From: Promethearchaeota archaeon
GTDB taxonomy: Archaea; Asgardarchaeota; Lokiarchaeia; Sigyniarchaeales; SOKP01
DNA: 64,000 bases
Direction: 5' to 3'
NCBI GenBank assembly: GCA_029838195.1
Contig: JALGVJ010000019.1
Span: forward strand, 1-64,000
The position numbers and the translations under genes are program-made. This document shows positions 9,741 to 22,464 of this stretch, piece by piece. Each line of letters begins with the position of its first letter. Within the stretch, counting starts at the first letter, position 1. The notes under the pieces were generated by a model. It saw nothing but the letters and a program-made list of their open reading frames with translations, searched no databases and had not been told where the DNA came from.

Positions 9741-11363
9741 ATGGTAGGAGAAAAAAAATATATTCTGGCAATAGATCATGGGACCCAAGGACCCAAAAGC
9801 GCGATAGTTTCCACATATGGGGAAGTTATTGATTGGGCTTATGAGGAGACGCCCATTCATGCAACGAAGGGTGGAGGAGTAGAGCAAGATCCAGAAGATT
9901 GGTGGAAAGCCATCTTAAAAACGGCAAAACAAGTGATTGATAGTGGAAACGTAAAGATTGACGATATAATTGGCGTGTGTAATTCTTCGCAATGGAGTGG
10001 CACGGTTCCTATTGATAAAAATGGCAATACTTTATACAATGCAATAATTTGGATGGATACTCGGGGAGCCACGTATATTAATAAGGCATTTCATGGATTA
10101 ATTAATGTTTCCGGCTATTCTCTTACAAAAATCTTAAAATGGTTAAAACTCACGGGAGGAGCCCCTTCGCATAGCGGAAAAGACCCTATCGCCCATATTC
10201 TGTGGTTAAAATACGAAGAACCAGAAATCTATGAAAAAACCTATAAATTTTTAGAGCCTCAGGATTATATAAATTTCAAGCTCACGGGAAAGATTGCCGC
10301 TTCTTATTCGTCGATCACAGTTCATTGGGTCACTGACGTGCGTGATATTTACAACATTCATTATGCTCCTAGTTTGATAAAAGCATTAAAAGTAGATGGA
10401 AGCAAATTACCGGAATTAAAAAGCTCCATCGACGTGTTAGGCCCTTTAAAAAAAGAGGTAGCGGAGGAGTTGGGATTAAACAAGGATGTTAAAGTGGTAA
10501 TGGGTGCCCCTGATGTGTTATCTGCCACGATTGGAGCCGGTGCTATAAGAAATTATGACACCTATTTTTATATTGGCACCAGTGATTGGGTTATATGCCA
10601 TGTTCCTTATAAGAAAACGGATATTGCTCATAACATGGCAAGCTTGCCTTCTGCCATTCCAGGACGCTATGTTATTTTGAATGAGCAAGAGATTGCGGGA
10701 GGGGCTTTACAATATCTAAGAAATAATATTTTATATCACAAGGATGAGTTATTAAAGGAAGAGCAAGTTCCAGACGTGTATAAGATATTTGATAAAATTG
10801 TAGAAAAAGTTCCTGCCGGCTCCAATAATTTGATCTTCACGCCATGGTTAATAGGAGAGCGTACACCCGTGGAAGATCACATCATTAGAGGAGGTCTTTA
10901 TAATTTATCTTTAGAAATGACCCGAGAGCATATTATTAGAGCTGTATTTGAAGGCGTTGCGTATAACGTGAGATGGCTTTTCATGTATGTGGAAAAATTT
11001 GTTGAGAAGTGGAAACGAAAAGAAAATCCGAATTTGGGCAAACATGACCCCATCATTCCTGAATTAAGTATCATCGGCGGTGGAGGAAATAGCGATATAT
11101 GGTGTCAGATTTTTGCTGATGTTCTAAATAGAAAAATTAAGCGAGTAAAGAATCCCATCCAAGCCAATGCGAGAGGAGCCGCATTCATAGCCGCCGTTGG
11201 TCTAGGCTATATTGATTGGGAGGATATTCCCAATTTGATGGAATATTCTAAAGAATTCACGCCAAATCCGGAGAATAGAGGAATCTATGATAAGTTATTT
11301 AGGGAATATTTAAACATTTATAAGACAACTCGAAAAATTTACAAGAGGCTCCTCAATCAGTAA
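9741..11363 (+). CDS. FGGY-family carbohydrate kinase (xylulokinase-like)
   Basis: ILAIDHGTQGPKSAIVS, NSSQWSGTVPIDKNG, WMDTRGA, GAPDVLSATIGAGA, IIGGGGNSDIWCQIFADVL. Confidence 0.9.
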   Translation: MVGEKKYILAIDHGTQGPKSAIVSTYGEVIDWAYEETPIHATKGGGVEQDPEDWWKAILKTAKQVIDSGNVKIDDIIGVCNSSQWSGTVPIDKNGNTLYNAIIWMDTRGATYINKAFHGLINVSGYSLTKILKWLKLTGGAPSHSGKDPIAHILWLKYEEPEIYEKTYKFLEPQDYINFKLTGKIAASYSSITVHWVTDVRDIYNIHYAPSLIKALKVDGSKLPELKSSIDVLGPLKKEVAEELGLNKDVKVVMGAPDVLSATIGAGAIRNYDTYFYIGTSDWVICHVPYKKTDIAHNMASLPSAIPGRYVILNEQEIAGGALQYLRNNILYHKDELLKEEQVPDVYKIFDKIVEKVPAGSNNLIFTPWLIGERTPVEDHIIRGGLYNLSLEMTREHIIRAVFEGVAYNVRWLFMYVEKFVEKWKRKENPNLGKHDPIIPELSIIGGGGNSDIWCQIFADVLNRKIKRVKNPIQANARGAAFIAAVGLGYIDWEDIPNLMEYSKEFTPNPENRGIYDKLFREYLNIYKTTRKIYKRLLNQ

Positions 11364-11791
11364 ATAAAATGACAAAAATTAAACATTTATAAATTTTTAA
11401 GATTTTTATTTTTTTTAATATGAAAATTCCATTTATATTTTTAGTCTACTATTATTGATTAACCCAAAAATTTTTTTATATTAAAAACGGTTATTAATTT
11501 TCATTGTTGGTTCATATTTTCACTTTCTCCACTTACTTTTGTCTCTCTTCTTTTTTTTTTCAAAAATTAAGATTTTTAAAATAACAAGTAAAGCCTTTTT
11601 GGGACAAAAAACCAATCAATTTCAAAAATTAAAATAAATTGATTAATTGTCATATTTCTTGTAATAGAAAATTTTTTTTTTCATTGTTCTCTAATCGAAG
11701 GAAATATAAGCCCTTATAATGAATGATAGCTTTGCCAAATCATATTAAAAAAAACTTAAAAATTAGTCAAAAAATTATGAAAAAAATAGAG

Positions 11792-13180
11792 TTATAAATT
11801 TAATTCTTTAATTTTACTTTTGAGTTCTCTTGTTTTTTCAGGGGTTAAATCGTATATGAAAATGAAAACGAGAAGTGCTAAAAGATTAAGGAACATGGGA
11901 AATAAAGCTGCTTGAACACGAATTCCAAAAAGGGCTAAAGGAGTTTGACTTTCTGCGTTAGGATCAAATCCCGTTAATTCATGGCTAATGGCAATAATTA
12001 ATGCAATAACTATTGAATTTAAGGATAAGAAAAAAGAACGGAGCCCCATGAATGTACCTTCCATTCGTTTACCTGATTTAACAATAGCTTCATCAATAGT
12101 ATCGGCGAAGACAGGATCTATTCCCACTCTTATAGCAGCGCCTCCTATCCCGTATGCAAGAGTTGCAAGGGTAAATCCTACTAAATTTTGTACGAACATG
12201 AACGGTAATAAAAGAATTGTGCTGATAAACGCGCCATAAATCAACATTTTTCGGTGGTTGTTTAATTTATGAGATAAACGGAGCCAAAAATACATCGAGC
12301 CTAAAGAACCGATAATAAATCCCGCCATGAGAAATATGGAACTACTTGCTTCCTCTTGTAATATATATTTTGTTACATATTGAAGGGATCCGAGAAGGCA
12401 CCCCGCTACTATACCATCCATAAAAAAGAGCACGATAACCACGACAAAATTCTTGGAAGACAATACGATTTTAAACGCTTGAAAGAATGAAACTTTTTCT
12501 TTATCAACATCCATTTCAAGATATCTTTCTTTCATCTCTTTTGATTCGATATGGCCAGGTATGATGGCAATAAATAAGATTAAACAAACTACGGCAAGAA
12601 TCCAAGCCATTCTCGTATATGATTGGCGATCTCCATAAGTGATGAAAAGCGGAGGCACAATTGAGCCTACTGCGGTCCCAACTAAAAGAAATGCCCTCCC
12701 CAATGTACCTACATTACGTCTATCCGAATCCATGCGAAATTTATCAGGAAATAATGCCCAATGATTTAAAGAAAAAGCGGTGAATGCTAATTCGTAGAGA
12801 CAGAGAAAAGTTACAACCCAAAAAAACAAAATCAATTGTCCACTAATAGGGTCAACATTTGGTGGCGAAAATATGGCGACTAGAAGAAATATAGCAGGAA
12901 TACCACTTCCCATTACCCAAGGAAATCTTTTTCCATACCGTTTCCAAAATTTCTTCGGACGATCGGCGATATAACCGATGATGGGATTATTTACTGCGTT
13001 CCATACTGAAAATATAGTATAAGCAATAGTAATGAGCCATACGTTCAATTTCACTTCTGTTTCCCAAAATATAAAGAAAAAGACACTGATAAAAATTGAA
13101 AGTGTATTCATTAAGAATTTTGTCAACGAATAGGAGACTATTGAAAGGTTTGTTTCTTTATGTTCTAATTCTCTTGACAT
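11792..13180 (-). CDS. MFS transporter, GPH-like
   Basis: 462 aa, about 12 TM; WNAVNNPIIGYIADRPK motif, similar to the 2619-4058 product. Confidence 0.85.
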   Translation of the reverse strand: MSRELEHKETNLSIVSYSLTKFLMNTLSIFISVFFFIFWETEVKLNVWLITIAYTIFSVWNAVNNPIIGYIADRPKKFWKRYGKRFPWVMGSGIPAIFLLVAIFSPPNVDPISGQLILFFWVVTFLCLYELAFTAFSLNHWALFPDKFRMDSDRRNVGTLGRAFLLVGTAVGSIVPPLFITYGDRQSYTRMAWILAVVCLILFIAIIPGHIESKEMKERYLEMDVDKEKVSFFQAFKIVLSSKNFVVVIVLFFMDGIVAGCLLGSLQYVTKYILQEEASSSIFLMAGFIIGSLGSMYFWLRLSHKLNNHRKMLIYGAFISTILLLPFMFVQNLVGFTLATLAYGIGGAAIRVGIDPVFADTIDEAIVKSGKRMEGTFMGLRSFFLSLNSIVIALIIAISHELTGFDPNAESQTPLALFGIRVQAALFPMFLNLLALLVFIFIYDLTPEKTRELKSKIKELNL

Positions 13181-13516: not shown

Positions 13517-15442
13517 TTAATAAAAGAGGTTTTCTATTTCTTGTTTAAGTCGCGATGGGGAAATTTTCGGTTTTCTATCCATGGTTAATAATCCATTTAC
13601 CTCCTGAAATTGATCATATAATTCTGTATAGCAAAATCCATGAATCCATTCCTTTCTCGCATCAAACATTTTCAATAAATTTATGACTTTTTCAAGAAGT
13701 TCATCAGAAGATTTTCCAACACCCCCATATCCCCAGCTCTCTTCACTTTCTTCTGATTCAAGTCCAAATCCCCCAATCTCACTGTAGATTATCGGTTCAT
13801 CTTCATAGAAATAAGGTTCAAGATACGTGGGAAAGGCCGATCGCAAGTCGAATTTTTTTTCTTCCTCGAAAGAATTCGCTAATAACTCATAGCGACCGTA
13901 TAAATGAATGGTGCATAAATCTGTTTTGGTATGGAACCAGCCATCATTATCAACGACTAATCTTGTAGGATCAAGCGATTTCATTAAGTAATATAATGAT
14001 ACAGTGTAATTCCTTCTCTCCGGATTTCGATGAGCTCCTTGTATACCCCACCCTTCATTTAGAATCGTCCATACAATGATGGAGGGGTGATTATAATCTC
14101 GTTCGATTTCAGCTGCAAATTGATTAATAATGCGTAATTGTGCTTTTGGTGTAAATTGGAATGCATTTCCGATTTCTCCCCATACTAAAACACCCATTTT
14201 GTCGCACCAATATAAAAAACGAGGATCAAATACTTTCTGATGAGTTCTTAAGCCATTAAATCCAAATTCTTTAATATATTGAATATCACGCTTGATTGCT
14301 TCATCTGAAGGGGCAGTATAAAGCCCATCCGGCCAGTAGCCTTGTACAAGAAACAATTTTTGATAAATTGGTTTATTATTCAACAACACTCGTTTATTTG
14401 TTCCAATAGGACGGTCAGAAAGAGAAATCTTTCTCATTCCAAAATAGCATTGTACTTCATCATAGATTTCATTTAAACGAGAATCATATATAGTTAAAAT
14501 GAGGTCATATAAATTAGGCGTGACTGTATCCCATAGATGTAATTTATCTTTCGGTATTTTCATTTTAAATTTGAAAGGGCTGGGATTTTGTATGCGTATC
14601 TGTGTTCCTTTAGGCCTTAATATTTTTCTATCCCTTTTTGCCTTGAGGTCTCCCAAAAAACTAAGATTAATATTTTCTTGAGCAATATCTTCATCATTAA
14701 AAAATACTTTAGCAGAAAGTCTCAAATTAGGATTACCTTTACCTGCTACATCACATTCCAAGATTATATGAGAATCATCTATATTGGGGGTAATTTTAAC
14801 CCATTTTAGATAATTTTTCAAGGAAACACATTCAAGCCATACAGTTTGCCAAATACCAGACACGCGCGGATAAAAAATACTTGTTGGTTTTTCGAACCAA
14901 AATTGCTTACCTCGTGGGATTTCTATGTCTGAACTAGGATCTTCCACCCGAACGACTAAAATATTATTTTTTTCAATAATATCGGTAATATCTAAAGTAA
15001 ACCCTATGTACCCACCTTCATGTTCTCCTACCCGCTCTCCATTTAAAAATACCATGCAATAGTAATCAACCGCTCCAAAATGTAATAAAATACGGTTATC
15101 ATCGAATTGAGAAGGAAGTTCAAATTCTTTTCGGTACCAAATAATGTCATGGAAAGATAGATCTCCAATTCCACTTAACTTGCTCTGAAAACAGAACGGT
15201 ACAATAATTTTCCTATTGAATTTCTCTTTTTGTTCCTTTTTATACCATTTTTGTTTTAAACCTACATTCTCATCATCGAAAGAAAATTCCCATTCGCCAT
15301 TAAGATTCAGCCAATTATCCTTTCTTTTAAAATGAGGCCTTGGATATTCTGGCCTAGGTATATTATCATTATTTTTTAAGGTCATATAATCTAAAATAAA
15401 ATATTGCTTATTTTTTTTAAGATTGTTAACATCCAAAATCAA
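13517..15442 (-). CDS. glycoside hydrolase family 2 (beta-galactosidase / beta-glucuronidase-like)
   Basis: RPHFKRKDNWLNLNGEWEFSFDD, LLHFGAVDYYCMVFLNGERVGEHEGGY, IVWTILNEGWG (acid/base region), YSEIGGFG (nucleophile). Confidence 0.9.
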   Translation of the reverse strand: MILDVNNLKKNKQYFILDYMTLKNNDNIPRPEYPRPHFKRKDNWLNLNGEWEFSFDDENVGLKQKWYKKEQKEKFNRKIIVPFCFQSKLSGIGDLSFHDIIWYRKEFELPSQFDDNRILLHFGAVDYYCMVFLNGERVGEHEGGYIGFTLDITDIIEKNNILVVRVEDPSSDIEIPRGKQFWFEKPTSIFYPRVSGIWQTVWLECVSLKNYLKWVKITPNIDDSHIILECDVAGKGNPNLRLSAKVFFNDEDIAQENINLSFLGDLKAKRDRKILRPKGTQIRIQNPSPFKFKMKIPKDKLHLWDTVTPNLYDLILTIYDSRLNEIYDEVQCYFGMRKISLSDRPIGTNKRVLLNNKPIYQKLFLVQGYWPDGLYTAPSDEAIKRDIQYIKEFGFNGLRTHQKVFDPRFLYWCDKMGVLVWGEIGNAFQFTPKAQLRIINQFAAEIERDYNHPSIIVWTILNEGWGIQGAHRNPERRNYTVSLYYLMKSLDPTRLVVDNDGWFHTKTDLCTIHLYGRYELLANSFEEEKKFDLRSAFPTYLEPYFYEDEPIIYSEIGGFGLESEESEESWGYGGVGKSSDELLEKVINLLKMFDARKEWIHGFCYTELYDQFQEVNGLLTMDRKPKISPSRLKQEIENLFY

Positions 15443-18063: not shown

Positions 18064-19851
18064 ATGAAAAAATTTAGAATCAACTATCTTAATTTTCCTT
18101 ACATAAGGGTGATAAATATTACAAGGAGTAATTCAAAAAGGAATACGGAACCAAAAATAGTAGCTGCCTGTATCGGGCAATGTGTCCATGTGGCTGGCGC
18201 TCATAATTTCATGAGTATTGCAACCCAGTTAGGTTATAATTGCATTTTTATAGGACCCGCCACGCCTATTCCTTCAATTATAAAAGTAATCGAAAGGGTA
18301 AGGCCCGAAATTGTTGGATTAAGCTATCGTTTAACTCCCCATACGGTAAAACCCTTATTAGTAGAATTTGAGAGGGAATACATGAAACTTAAAGTTAAGC
18401 CAAAAAAATTATTTTTTGCCGGAACACCAAAAGTAGTGGAAGAGGCTAAAGCTCACGAAATTTTTGATCATTATTTCATTGGAGGAGAGTCAAAATATCA
18501 AATACTTGCGGCGTTAAAAGGCGAATTTGCAGATCAACAAGTCCAACAAGAAATCCCAATGGAGTTAATTTCGCGAATAGAGTGGAAAAAGCCTTATCCC
18601 GTGATACGAGCCCATTTTGGTTTGCCCAGTCTGGAAAATACAATTAAAGGGATTGAAGAAATAGCTGAAGCCAGTGCATTAGACATAATTTCGATAGCTC
18701 CTGATCAAAATACCCAACAAAATTATTTTCATCCAGAAGAGTGCATTCAATCGCTATCTGGGGCGGGAGGGGTTCCCTTAAAAAGTGAGGCAGATTTTTT
18801 CAAATTACATGAAGCCCGATTAAGAGGAAATTTTCCTTTATTAAGGATATATGCAGGAACAAGAGATTTCATTAAATTAGCAGAATTATATCAGCGGACG
18901 ATAAAAAATGCCTGGGCTGCAATTCCCATTTTTTGGTTTAATCAAATGGATGGCAGAGGTCCCTTGAGTTTGAAGGATTCCATTAAAGAACATTTAAAAG
19001 CGATTGAATGGCATGCTAAAAATAATATTCCCGTAGAAATAAATGATCCTCATCATTGGGGTCTTCGAGATGCACCTGATGCGATTGAAGTTGCTGATAT
19101 GTTTTTGTGTGGTATAATAGCAAAAACTTTAGGAGTCCGGTATTTTATTGCGCAATACATGTTTAATACACCCCCTTCAAATTCTTTAGAAATGGATTTA
19201 GCTAAAAATCTTGCGAAAGATGAACTCCTACACGAATTAGTTGATGCGAATTTCAAAATCATTCGTCAGACGCGGACGGGTTTAGCAAGTTTTCCTTTAA
19301 ATTTAGAGAAAGCAAAAGGGCAATTAGCAGCGGCAACATTAATCCAATTAACAATGAGACCAGATATTTTACATGTAGTGAGTTATTCTGAAGCAAGTCA
19401 TGCTGCTCGGCCTGAGGAAATAATAGAGAGTTGTAATATTGTGGATCAAGTGATAGATCAAGTATATTCAAGTAAGTTAAATGTTATTGATGATCGCGTG
19501 ACTCAACGAAAAGAAGATTTAATTAAGCAAGCCAGATGGATCATTGATTTAATTCCGTCCTTAACAAAATCTACGGATGAGATACAAAATCCTTATATAA
19601 ATCTTGAAGCTCTCACGCGATTAGTAAAACACGGGATTTTTGATGCGCCTCACTTAAAAAACAATAAATATGCGCAAGGAAAAATAAAAACCAAAATTAT
19701 TGATGGGGCATGTATATCATGGGACGATCAGCTTCAGAAACCAATCGATGAGATAGAACGAATATTGCAAATCCTTTCGAAAATTTCTCATGAATTTCCT
19801 CAATTAAAACAGGTTCGAAAAAAAATTGCAAAGATGGAGTTGATGGAATAA
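18064..19851 (+). CDS. B12-binding-domain protein fused to a mutase-like region (function uncharacterised)
   Basis: N-terminal Rossmann-like CVHVAGAHNFMSIATQLGYNCIFIGPATPI...; C-terminal region with ISIAPDQNTQQNYFHPE, INDPHHWGLRDAPDAIEVAD. Confidence 0.7.
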   Translation: MKKFRINYLNFPYIRVINITRSNSKRNTEPKIVAACIGQCVHVAGAHNFMSIATQLGYNCIFIGPATPIPSIIKVIERVRPEIVGLSYRLTPHTVKPLLVEFEREYMKLKVKPKKLFFAGTPKVVEEAKAHEIFDHYFIGGESKYQILAALKGEFADQQVQQEIPMELISRIEWKKPYPVIRAHFGLPSLENTIKGIEEIAEASALDIISIAPDQNTQQNYFHPEECIQSLSGAGGVPLKSEADFFKLHEARLRGNFPLLRIYAGTRDFIKLAELYQRTIKNAWAAIPIFWFNQMDGRGPLSLKDSIKEHLKAIEWHAKNNIPVEINDPHHWGLRDAPDAIEVADMFLCGIIAKTLGVRYFIAQYMFNTPPSNSLEMDLAKNLAKDELLHELVDANFKIIRQTRTGLASFPLNLEKAKGQLAAATLIQLTMRPDILHVVSYSEASHAARPEEIIESCNIVDQVIDQVYSSKLNVIDDRVTQRKEDLIKQARWIIDLIPSLTKSTDEIQNPYINLEALTRLVKHGIFDAPHLKNNKYAQGKIKTKIIDGACISWDDQLQKPIDEIERILQILSKISHEFPQLKQVRKKIAKMELME

Positions 19852-21122
19852 TGAAATTTTGTGTAATTGGAGCAGGATCCGGGGGACGAGCATTTGCAGC
19901 TTATCTTTCTTCGAAAGGATTTCAAGTTTCACTTTATAATCGTTCTTATTCAAGAATTGCTGATATAAAAAAAGCGGGGGGAATTACTGCTTTTGGTTGC
20001 TTGAAAGGTTTTTATCCAATTAGATTGGTCACACAAAATCTACAATTAGCAGTAAGCGATGCTAATATTATTTTAATAGTAGTCCCTGCTTCTGCTCATG
20101 AAAGTATTGCTAAAAAACTCGCACCATTTCTTAAAAACGGTCAAATCATATTGTTAAATCCTGGCAGAACATTTGGAGCTATAGAAGTTAAGAAAATAAT
20201 AGGTGAGAGAAGAAAGGATCTCTCTATTTTTGTAGGAGAAACTCAAACGCTACTCTTTACATGTAGAGCTTTAAAGAATAATGGAGTAAATATTTTAAAA
20301 ATAAAAAATACCGTGAATTTCTCAACATTTCCCGAGAATCATGTTCATGTCGTCCATAATATATTAGCTTATATTTTTCCTCAATTGATTCCCGTGGATA
20401 ATTATCTTGAAGTTACTTTTAATAATATTGGCATGCTACTTCATCCTGCTATCACATTGTTTAATGCTGGAATGATGGATATAGGCAAACCTTTTAAATT
20501 CTATAATGAAGGGGCAAGCATTAAAATTTGTCAAGTTCTTGAAACAGTAGAAGCTGAAATTAATAAAATTTTAAGTGAATTAGGTTTAAAACAATTTCGA
20601 TTTACCAAATGGGCAGAATCTTCTTATGGAATAAAGAGCGAATCGATATACGATGCCATCCAAAAAATTGAAGCATACAAGCCAGTAAATGCCCCTAATC
20701 AATTAATTACACGATACCTCACGGAAGATGTGCCGACTGGGCTTGTTCCCATTTCTTCTCTAGCAGAATTTCTCGATATCGAAATTCCCACTATTGAATC
20801 AATTATTTTATTAACAAGTTTGTTATGTGGTATTGCTTTTAAAAAAACGGGGAGGACACTCCAAAAATTGGGACTTCACGATTATTTAATTAATCACATA
20901 AATGTCATGCGAATAAGGGGACTTGAAAAAGAAGGATTATTTACGGTTGAAAAGATTTTATCTAATCCTAATGAGTTCAAAATTTGTATTAATTGCGAAC
21001 AACTTAATTATCACGAAAATAATGCTTGTTGGTTATGCCATGAAAAAAATTTTAGACAACCAAGGGAAAATGATTTTGTTAAAATATATAATAATGACGA
21101 AAAATCATTAATTCGAGCGTAA
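19851..21122 (+). CDS. NAD/octopine-nopaline dehydrogenase-family protein with C-terminal CxxC/CxxC zinc-ribbon-like tail
   Basis: MKFCVIGAGSGGRAFAAYLSSKGFQVSLYNR, LNPGRTFGAIEV, NNIGMLLHPAITLFNAG (opine DH signature); tail CINCEQLNYHENNACWLCHEKNF; overlaps the upstream stop (TAATG). Confidence 0.85.
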   Translation: MKFCVIGAGSGGRAFAAYLSSKGFQVSLYNRSYSRIADIKKAGGITAFGCLKGFYPIRLVTQNLQLAVSDANIILIVVPASAHESIAKKLAPFLKNGQIILLNPGRTFGAIEVKKIIGERRKDLSIFVGETQTLLFTCRALKNNGVNILKIKNTVNFSTFPENHVHVVHNILAYIFPQLIPVDNYLEVTFNNIGMLLHPAITLFNAGMMDIGKPFKFYNEGASIKICQVLETVEAEINKILSELGLKQFRFTKWAESSYGIKSESIYDAIQKIEAYKPVNAPNQLITRYLTEDVPTGLVPISSLAEFLDIEIPTIESIILLTSLLCGIAFKKTGRTLQKLGLHDYLINHINVMRIRGLEKEGLFTVEKILSNPNEFKICINCEQLNYHENNACWLCHEKNFRQPRENDFVKIYNNDEKSLIRA

Positions 21123-21276: not shown

Positions 21277-22464
21277 CTAATAACGTTTATTTAATTTTTC
21301 CACGTGTTTTTTTCTTCGATTAACATATTTTTGGATATAAGAAAGCGCATCATTTACCGCATAGTCATATGCAGAAATATTTTTCTCTAATGCACCTTGG
21401 ATGATCTCGTTTACTTTTTCGTCTATTTTTCCTCTAACGAAATCAAATATTTCTTCAGGAGATTTTGCTATTTTATTTACGCCTATAGCCAAGATTTCTC
21501 CCGCATTAGCCACGAAATCGGGAAAGGCTATGATTTCTTTCTCATGAAGGATTTTCGTGATACCATTTTCATACGGAATATTCGCTGCTGGAATTATTGC
21601 TTTCACATGAATGTTATCCACATTGTTTCTATTAATGACATCAGGGCGAGCTCCTGGAATGATGAAATCAATGGGATGGTCTTTTGAAAGTTCGAATAAT
21701 TTTTCTTTTTCTACCTTGATTAGATTTTTACTTTCATAATGATTAATGAGATCATCCCCGTATTGTTGTTTCAATTTCATCAACTTGTCTAAATCCAGCC
21801 CCTTTTCGTTAAAAATGGCTCCTTTAATGGTTGAAACGCCATTTAACTGATATCCCAATTCTTTCAAACTCATAGCTATTCCAATGCCTACTTTCCCAAA
21901 TCCTTCTAATAGAATTTTTGGTTTAGAATTCTCTTCAAATTTACCCTTTGATTTTAAATACTTAAAAATCGCTTCAATGCAGTATGAAACGCCATATCCC
22001 GTGAATAATTCTTCTACGGGAAAACCGTTTTTTTTCATGCCAAGAGGTTTCGGTGCCAATCCAGGTTTACCAATGATATTAAAAATTCGCTCAATATCTC
22101 GGTCATAGGTTCCCATATCAGGGCCGCATACGTATTTATCTTCTAAAATGTTTGTTTTTATTGCTTCTGCAAAACCGGTAATTAATAAATCTTTTTTTTC
22201 CGAAAAAGGATCTCCTTTAATTCCTGCTTTAGCCCCTCCTACTTTAAGTCGATAGCTGGCAAATTTATAAGACATTGCTCGTGCCAATCGTACGATTTCT
22301 TCAAGAGAAACGTCTGGTTCCATCCGAATACCGCCTGCGGGCCATCCAATTGATGTATTATCGAACACTAAGTATCCTTCTAATCCAATACTAGAGTTTC
22401 TTACAATCACTATCTTCTCAGGTCCTAATTCATCAAAAAAATCAGTGGGTAAAGCATTACTCAT
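21277..22464 (-). CDS. Glu/Leu/Phe/Val dehydrogenase
   Basis: GWPAGGIRMEPDVSLEEIVRLARAMSYKFASYRLKVGGAKAGI (K-x-x-x-GGxKxG), LLEGFGKVGIGIA, IIPAANIPYENG, ANAGE. Confidence 0.9.
   Translation of the reverse strand: MSNALPTDFFDELGPEKIVIVRNSSIGLEGYLVFDNTSIGWPAGGIRMEPDVSLEEIVRLARAMSYKFASYRLKVGGAKAGIKGDPFSEKKDLLITGFAEAIKTNILEDKYVCGPDMGTYDRDIERIFNIIGKPGLAPKPLGMKKNGFPVEELFTGYGVSYCIEAIFKYLKSKGKFEENSKPKILLEGFGKVGIGIAMSLKELGYQLNGVSTIKGAIFNEKGLDLDKLMKLKQQYGDDLINHYESKNLIKVEKEKLFELSKDHPIDFIIPGARPDVINRNNVDNIHVKAIIPAANIPYENGITKILHEKEIIAFPDFVANAGEILAIGVNKIAKSPEEIFDFVRGKIDEKVNEIIQGALEKNISAYDYAVNDALSYIQKYVNRRKKHVEKLNKRY

Follow-up and report, generated by a model that had tools for sequence, protein, structure and literature searches.

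A predicted B12-binding mutase of the glutamate mutase superfamily is paired with an opine dehydrogenase in Asgard archaea and Chloroflexota

Introduction

Few reactions of adenosylcobalamin (AdoCbl)-dependent mutases are known, and a new subfamily of these enzymes is uncommon. In clostridia, glutamate mutase (GlmES/MutES; structures 1cb7 and 6h9e from Clostridium cochlearium) feeds an amino acid into fermentation, and its partners are methylaspartate ammonia-lyase or GlmL. In the GlmE subunit, an arginine claw formed by R66, R100 and R149 grips glutamate (PMC9545868).

Opine dehydrogenases have recently gained a new branch. Telek et al. (2024) purified six metagenomic enzymes (mODHs) of hot-spring origin, which form a previously undescribed subclass and favour L-Asp and L-Glu with pyruvate (PMC10787698). 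In that work, the double substitution A111R/N198G shifted the specificity of ArODH to Asp, and Arg35 of the mODHs was tied to NADPH. L-Asp is nonetheless used poorly, with KM values above 20 mM and about 25 mM for mODH-582. The mODHs were treated as biocatalysts, and the main text mentions neither a mutase nor genomic context (PMC10787698).

Here we analyse a two-gene locus in a 64,000-nucleotide stretch of DNA (the window) from a Promethearchaeota archaeon, whose genome (4.5 Mb, 97% complete) has its nearest relatives among the Lokiarchaeia. Both products belong to known superfamilies. In the openly searchable papers that we covered, we found no description of the mutase subfamily, of its B12-fused CxHxxG architecture or of the pathway, nor of a pairing of the two genes. 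Features of the locus are listed in Table 1.

Table 1. Features of the mutase/opine dehydrogenase locus, in window coordinates
Feature	Position	Strand	Remarks
Gene 1	18064..19851	+	595 aa, ATG start; fused B12-binding domain and MutE-like TIM-barrel mutase (predicted)
B12-binding Rossmann domain	18154..18513	+	Gene 1 residues 31-150
Glutamate-mutase-E-like TIM barrel and C-terminal segment	18556..19698	+	Gene 1 residues 165-545
TAATG stop/start overlap	19849..19853	+	gaa-TAA of gene 1 at 19849-19851; gene 2 ATG from 19851
Gene 2	19851..21122	+	423-aa opine dehydrogenase (PF02317), putative acidic-amino-acid (mODH-like) subclass
Gene 2 R106	20166..20168	+	ArODH position 111 (Ala in ArODH, Arg in mODHs)
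Gene 2 G194 through catalytic H198	20430..20444	+	G194 = ArODH N198; H198 = ArODH H202
Gene 2 catalytic D293	20727..20729	+	ArODH D297
Gene 2 C-terminal CxxC...CxxC zinc-ribbon-like extension	20985..21038	+	Sequence motif
ELFV (Glu/Leu/Phe/Val) dehydrogenase ORF	21277-22464	-	Neighbour of the pair

Results

An earlier reading of the window from its sequence (the original prediction) had described a B12-binding, mutase-like gene translationally coupled to an opine-dehydrogenase-like gene. The coupling is exact in the letters, the two reading frames sharing the last base of the gene 1 stop codon. Pfam, fold and profile matches agree on an N-terminal B12 domain followed by a mutase-like region in the first product. 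The Pfam B12-binding family matches residues 31-94 (E 1.3e-6, just under the domain's cut-off), and Met_asp_mut_E (PF06368) matches residues 338-544 with 27.1 bits, its cut-off being 26.6. Among 35 members of the mutase family, the B12-binding match was found in all 35 and the MutE match in 22. When solved structures were searched with the gene 1 sequence, the B12 domain alone was matched. An AlphaFold2 model (pLDDT 81, pTM 0.82) has a Rossmann domain followed by a TIM barrel, and its C-terminal part is helical; in a Foldseek search, its top matches were glutamate mutase E structures 6h9e and 1cb7 (E 2e-15), with moderate TM-scores (0.54/0.65), followed by lysine 5,6- and ornithine 4,5-aminomutase and methylmalonyl-CoA mutase.

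Because a single GlmE sequence proved too weak for alignment, we built a MutE family alignment from MutE proteins of Chloroflexota genomes and GlmE of E. coli O157. With hhalign, the family profile aligned to it over 383 columns (E 1.1e-9, probability 96). The C-terminal region, which might have belonged to a family with no connection to B12, is thus MutE-like in both profile and fold. An HMM made from 78 gene 1 homologues misses all eight MutE proteins, and the canonical Chloroflexota MutE proteins form a group apart, below the detection limit of this HMM. These comparisons place the gene 1 product among MutE-type mutases, yet in a separate family within the glutamate mutase superfamily.

Conserved residues set the gene 1 product apart from glutamate mutase. 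Its B12 motif reads C40-x-H42-x-x-G45 and, after a further 41 residues, S87-x-x-L90. The CxHxxG form occurs in 76/76 homologues, Cys replacing the Asp of the usual DxHxxG while the cobalt-ligand His and the Gly are retained. By profile alignment rather than superposed coordinates, claw residues R66, R100 and R149 correspond to H184, Q218 and Y263, each invariant or nearly so across 78 sequences; GlmE E330 corresponds to E443, which is invariant. Four other barrel arginines, R182, R261, R335 and R404, are invariant and new to this family. What is common to the two systems is thus the TIM-barrel family, the type of B12 domain, the His of the B12 motif and the E330 equivalent; gene 1 differs in encoding a single chain with the B12 domain ahead of the barrel, in its motif, in all three claw positions and in its partner, an opine dehydrogenase. 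The motif and the replaced claw indicate that the gene 1 product is not a glutamate mutase, and the loss of the claw suggests a substrate unlike glutamate. No lysine column is strictly invariant (the best are K175, 75/78, and K381, 68/78), which argues against an aminomutase of the pyridoxal phosphate (PLP) type. The best reading of motif and fold is that gene 1 encodes an AdoCbl-dependent, PLP-independent carbon-skeleton mutase.

The second product had been assigned to the octopine/nopaline dehydrogenase family, and it is a full opine dehydrogenase by its matches to Pfam Octopine_DH (E 1.1e-36) and, over its full length, to the Arthrobacter enzyme 1bg6 (E 3.5e-112). Equivalents of Gly11/13/16 (GxGxxG), His202, Arg292 and Asp297 are kept in nearly all of 79 homologues. 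As in the hot-spring mODHs, which belong to the same family as ArODH, position 111 is Arg and position 198 Gly (79/79 homologues each), position 35 is Arg (78/78), position 34 is Asn and position 36 is Ser or Thr. From these marker residues, rather than from an alignment with mODH sequences, we infer that gene 2 belongs to the acidic-amino-acid mODH subclass; the substrates predicted from its sequence are thus an acidic amino acid and pyruvate. Given the weak use of Asp by the published enzymes, the native substrate is probably an acid other than Asp. Gene 2 departs from the mODHs as published in having a B12 mutase partner and, in some archaeal copies, a zinc-ribbon-like tail. This CxxC...CxxC tail is limited to the window and to homologues of 423/424 aa (L004/L031, L008/L051), being absent from shorter ones. 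The second Octopine_DH paralogue of this genome (L149:7041-8129; G000 contig 35) is unlinked, with no mutase beside it, and lacks Arg111, Gly198 and Arg35, carrying Asp, Asn and Gln at these positions.

The pairing is near universal. Lokiarchaeia, Heimdallarchaeia and Chloroflexota together yielded 87 loci, with some genomes counted twice via different collections, and in 78 of these loci both genes are adjacent on one strand, most often with a 4-base overlap. The mutase gene comes first in 65 and the opine dehydrogenase gene in 13, the latter order being that of the Heimdallarchaeia. Those inspected among the other nine loci are truncated by the end of their contig; the exception is L025, in which the pair is separated by two genes, one of them AsnB-like. 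Among 58 Asgard relatives, 28 have both genes, 28 have neither, and one each has the mutase or the opine dehydrogenase only (Fisher P = 6e-14, shared ancestry not corrected for); the mutase-only genome (G022) has its mutase cut at a contig end, and the opine-only genome (G027) a dehydrogenase fragment near a contig start. The two genes are also inherited together: their trees are congruent (mirror-tree r 0.94, with 0/2000 permutations as high). In Chloroflexota, the mutase was found in 13 of 201 genomes, and a search of viral contigs and plasmids turned up no homologue. Far from being adjacent in one genome only, the genes stand together on the same strand in three phyla, and the pairing is not due to chance. 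Given that either gene may come first and that the pair occurs in two domains of life, shared function is the most economical reading of these counts, which are uncorrected for phylogeny.

Other neighbours are less constant. The ELFV dehydrogenase gene that the original prediction noted on the opposite strand is real; among the loci examined it adjoins the pair in the window genome alone, so it is probably irrelevant, and we rejected it as a third enzyme. An AsnB-like gene occurs in 11 of the 58 Asgard relatives, and 11/11 of these are Lokiarchaeia that have the mutase (hypergeometric P = 1.5e-4, uncorrected for shared ancestry); it often lies beside the pair. Its placement in Lokiarchaeia takes several separate forms: it precedes the pair in L131, separates the two genes in L148 and follows the mutase in L022, whereas in L033, L039, L042 and L048 it is two genes away on the other strand. 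A second AsnB-like/opine couple is present in one genome (G038). Where the N-terminus of a Lokiarchaeial copy is intact, it begins MAGI, MTGI or LAGI and lacks the glutaminase Cys, whereas three Chloroflexota loci (L151-L153) have a canonical AsnB (MCGI) in an operon with the pair or near it. Within the Lokiarchaeial mutase/AsnB/opine operon L148, two related genes (10264-12501 and 14183-15283), one with a weak CofD match, are also found.

In one Lokiarchaeial clade, genes for a D-Ala-D-Ala-ligase-like ATP-grasp protein and an ornithine-racemase-like (Orr-like) protein lie upstream of the pair, and an ATP-grasp ligase gene lies downstream of it in a Chloroflexota locus (L067). Neither gene was found in the window genome or in most others, so we regard both as accessory rather than core. 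Neither these partners and the AsnB-like proteins nor the Asp/Glu subclass of gene 2 figured in the original prediction. The ligase and racemase genes also form a two-gene unit of their own (L116, L118, L119, L121, L123, L124), which is conserved across Lokiarchaeia, Heimdallarchaeia and Chloroflexota. AlkZ-like, Nudix, SAM synthetase, biotin carboxylase and HgdB-like neighbours are local to single lineages and were judged unrelated. A small PRK04164-type membrane protein recurs beside the pair in Chloroflexota (L151, L152, L154, L155) and could be a transporter for the pathway product.

Discussion

We propose, with a probability of roughly 0.6, that the two enzymes catalyse consecutive steps on an acidic amino-acid scaffold, followed in some lineages by amide formation. 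In the first step, homolysis of the Co-C bond of AdoCbl would generate an adenosyl radical, which would abstract hydrogen from an amino acid with several carboxylates, and a carbon fragment would then move onto the neighbouring carbon. In the second, gene 2 would couple pyruvate with an acidic L-amino acid, which is plausibly what the mutase makes, at the expense of NAD(P)H, giving an N-(1-carboxyethyl) amino acid. An ATP-using amide former might follow, either an AsnB-type enzyme (glutaminase-dead and AsnB-like, or canonical) or an ATP-grasp ligase acting with the racemase; as most genomes, that of the window included, lack these genes, such steps would not be obligatory. Since the purified mODHs use acidic amino acids poorly, the real substrate of this subclass may be the mutase product. 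The two-step amino-acid or opine pathway originally predicted thus survives in part: the assignments to the B12 mutase superfamily and to the opine dehydrogenases stand, as does the conserved functional pairing, and the aminomutase analogy and the ELFV dehydrogenase do not. The pair sets the orphan mODH subclass in a physiological context and opens the reaction of a new B12 mutase to direct testing; if the proposal is true, it would represent an undescribed metabolic capability common to Asgard archaea and Chloroflexota.

As to the order of the steps, we slightly favour mutase before dehydrogenase. The reverse order, in which N-(1-carboxyethyl)-Asp or -Glu is formed by the dehydrogenase and this tricarboxylate is then the substrate that the mutase rearranges, seems doubtful. 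The four invariant barrel arginines would fit three carboxylates, assuming that all four face the active site, every residue of the GlmE claw is replaced, and Heimdallarchaeia place the opine gene first. Most other lineages, however, place the mutase gene first, and the substrate would be a secondary amine, on which no B12 mutase is known to act.

The direction could also be the opposite of that proposed, with scavenged opines oxidised to an acidic amino acid and pyruvate and the mutase feeding fermentation. Lokiarchaeia and Anaerolineae are believed to be anaerobic users of peptides and amino acids, and opine dehydrogenase reactions run both ways. We nevertheless consider such a catabolic unit rather unlikely: we recognised no methylaspartate ammonia-lyase and no GlmL chaperone next to the pair, the glutamate claw is lost, and the recurrent third partners spend ATP making amides, which fits synthesis. 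Synthesis is therefore the direction we infer.

Consecutive synthetic steps on an acidic scaffold invite comparison with two other systems. The substrate of beta-lactam synthetase is an N-carboxyethyl amino acid, N-carboxyethyl-arginine. Like beta-lactam and carbapenam synthetases (1jgt, 1q15), the Lokiarchaeial AsnB-like proteins belong to the asparagine synthetase family and have lost the glutaminase Cys, but they are much nearer in sequence to AsnB (1ct9, E 2e-50) than to beta-lactam synthetase (3e-16). By analogy only, the set also recalls the logic of pyrrolysine synthesis, where PylB, PylC and PylD are a radical SAM mutase, an ATP-grasp ligase and a dehydrogenase; here the mutase is of the B12 type instead, the dehydrogenase differs and a ligase is present in some genomes only. 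It is conceivable, though we would think it improbable, that Asgard archaea make a lactam or amide natural product by B12-radical chemistry. An acidic amino acid would undergo opine formation and radical rearrangement, and a glutaminase-dead AsnB-type ligase would then close a ring or form an amide, much as beta-lactam synthetase acts on N-carboxyethyl-arginine.

Two further readings fare worse. One is an aminomutase that depends on both PLP and B12 (KamDE, OraSE), an analogy going back to the B12-dependent aminomutases named in the original prediction; the second-best fold group is indeed that of lysine 5,6- and ornithine 4,5-aminomutase, and an ornithine-racemase-like gene lies near the pair in one Lokiarchaeial clade. 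The analogy is very improbable, as the barrel groups with MutE in profile and fold, no candidate for the imine-forming lysine of PLP is strictly invariant, and the racemase is missing from the window genome. That gene 1 is an ordinary glutamate mutase of the methylaspartate pathway, linked to an oxidoreductase by coincidence, is scarcely tenable: the PF06368 score lies just over its cut-off and MutE is the best fold match, but three of three claw residues are replaced, the canonical MutE proteins of Chloroflexota are a separate group missed by the family HMM, and the dehydrogenase pairing is near universal.

Among Chloroflexota, we also came across divergent MutE proteins (L163, L164, L162) that adjoin enolase-superfamily-like genes. 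Two of them (L163 and L164) lack the usual claw context, with VPS where QPR stands at R66, and the B12 subunit motif of L163 is DAHVAG. These proteins are possibly one more mutase group, as yet unassigned.
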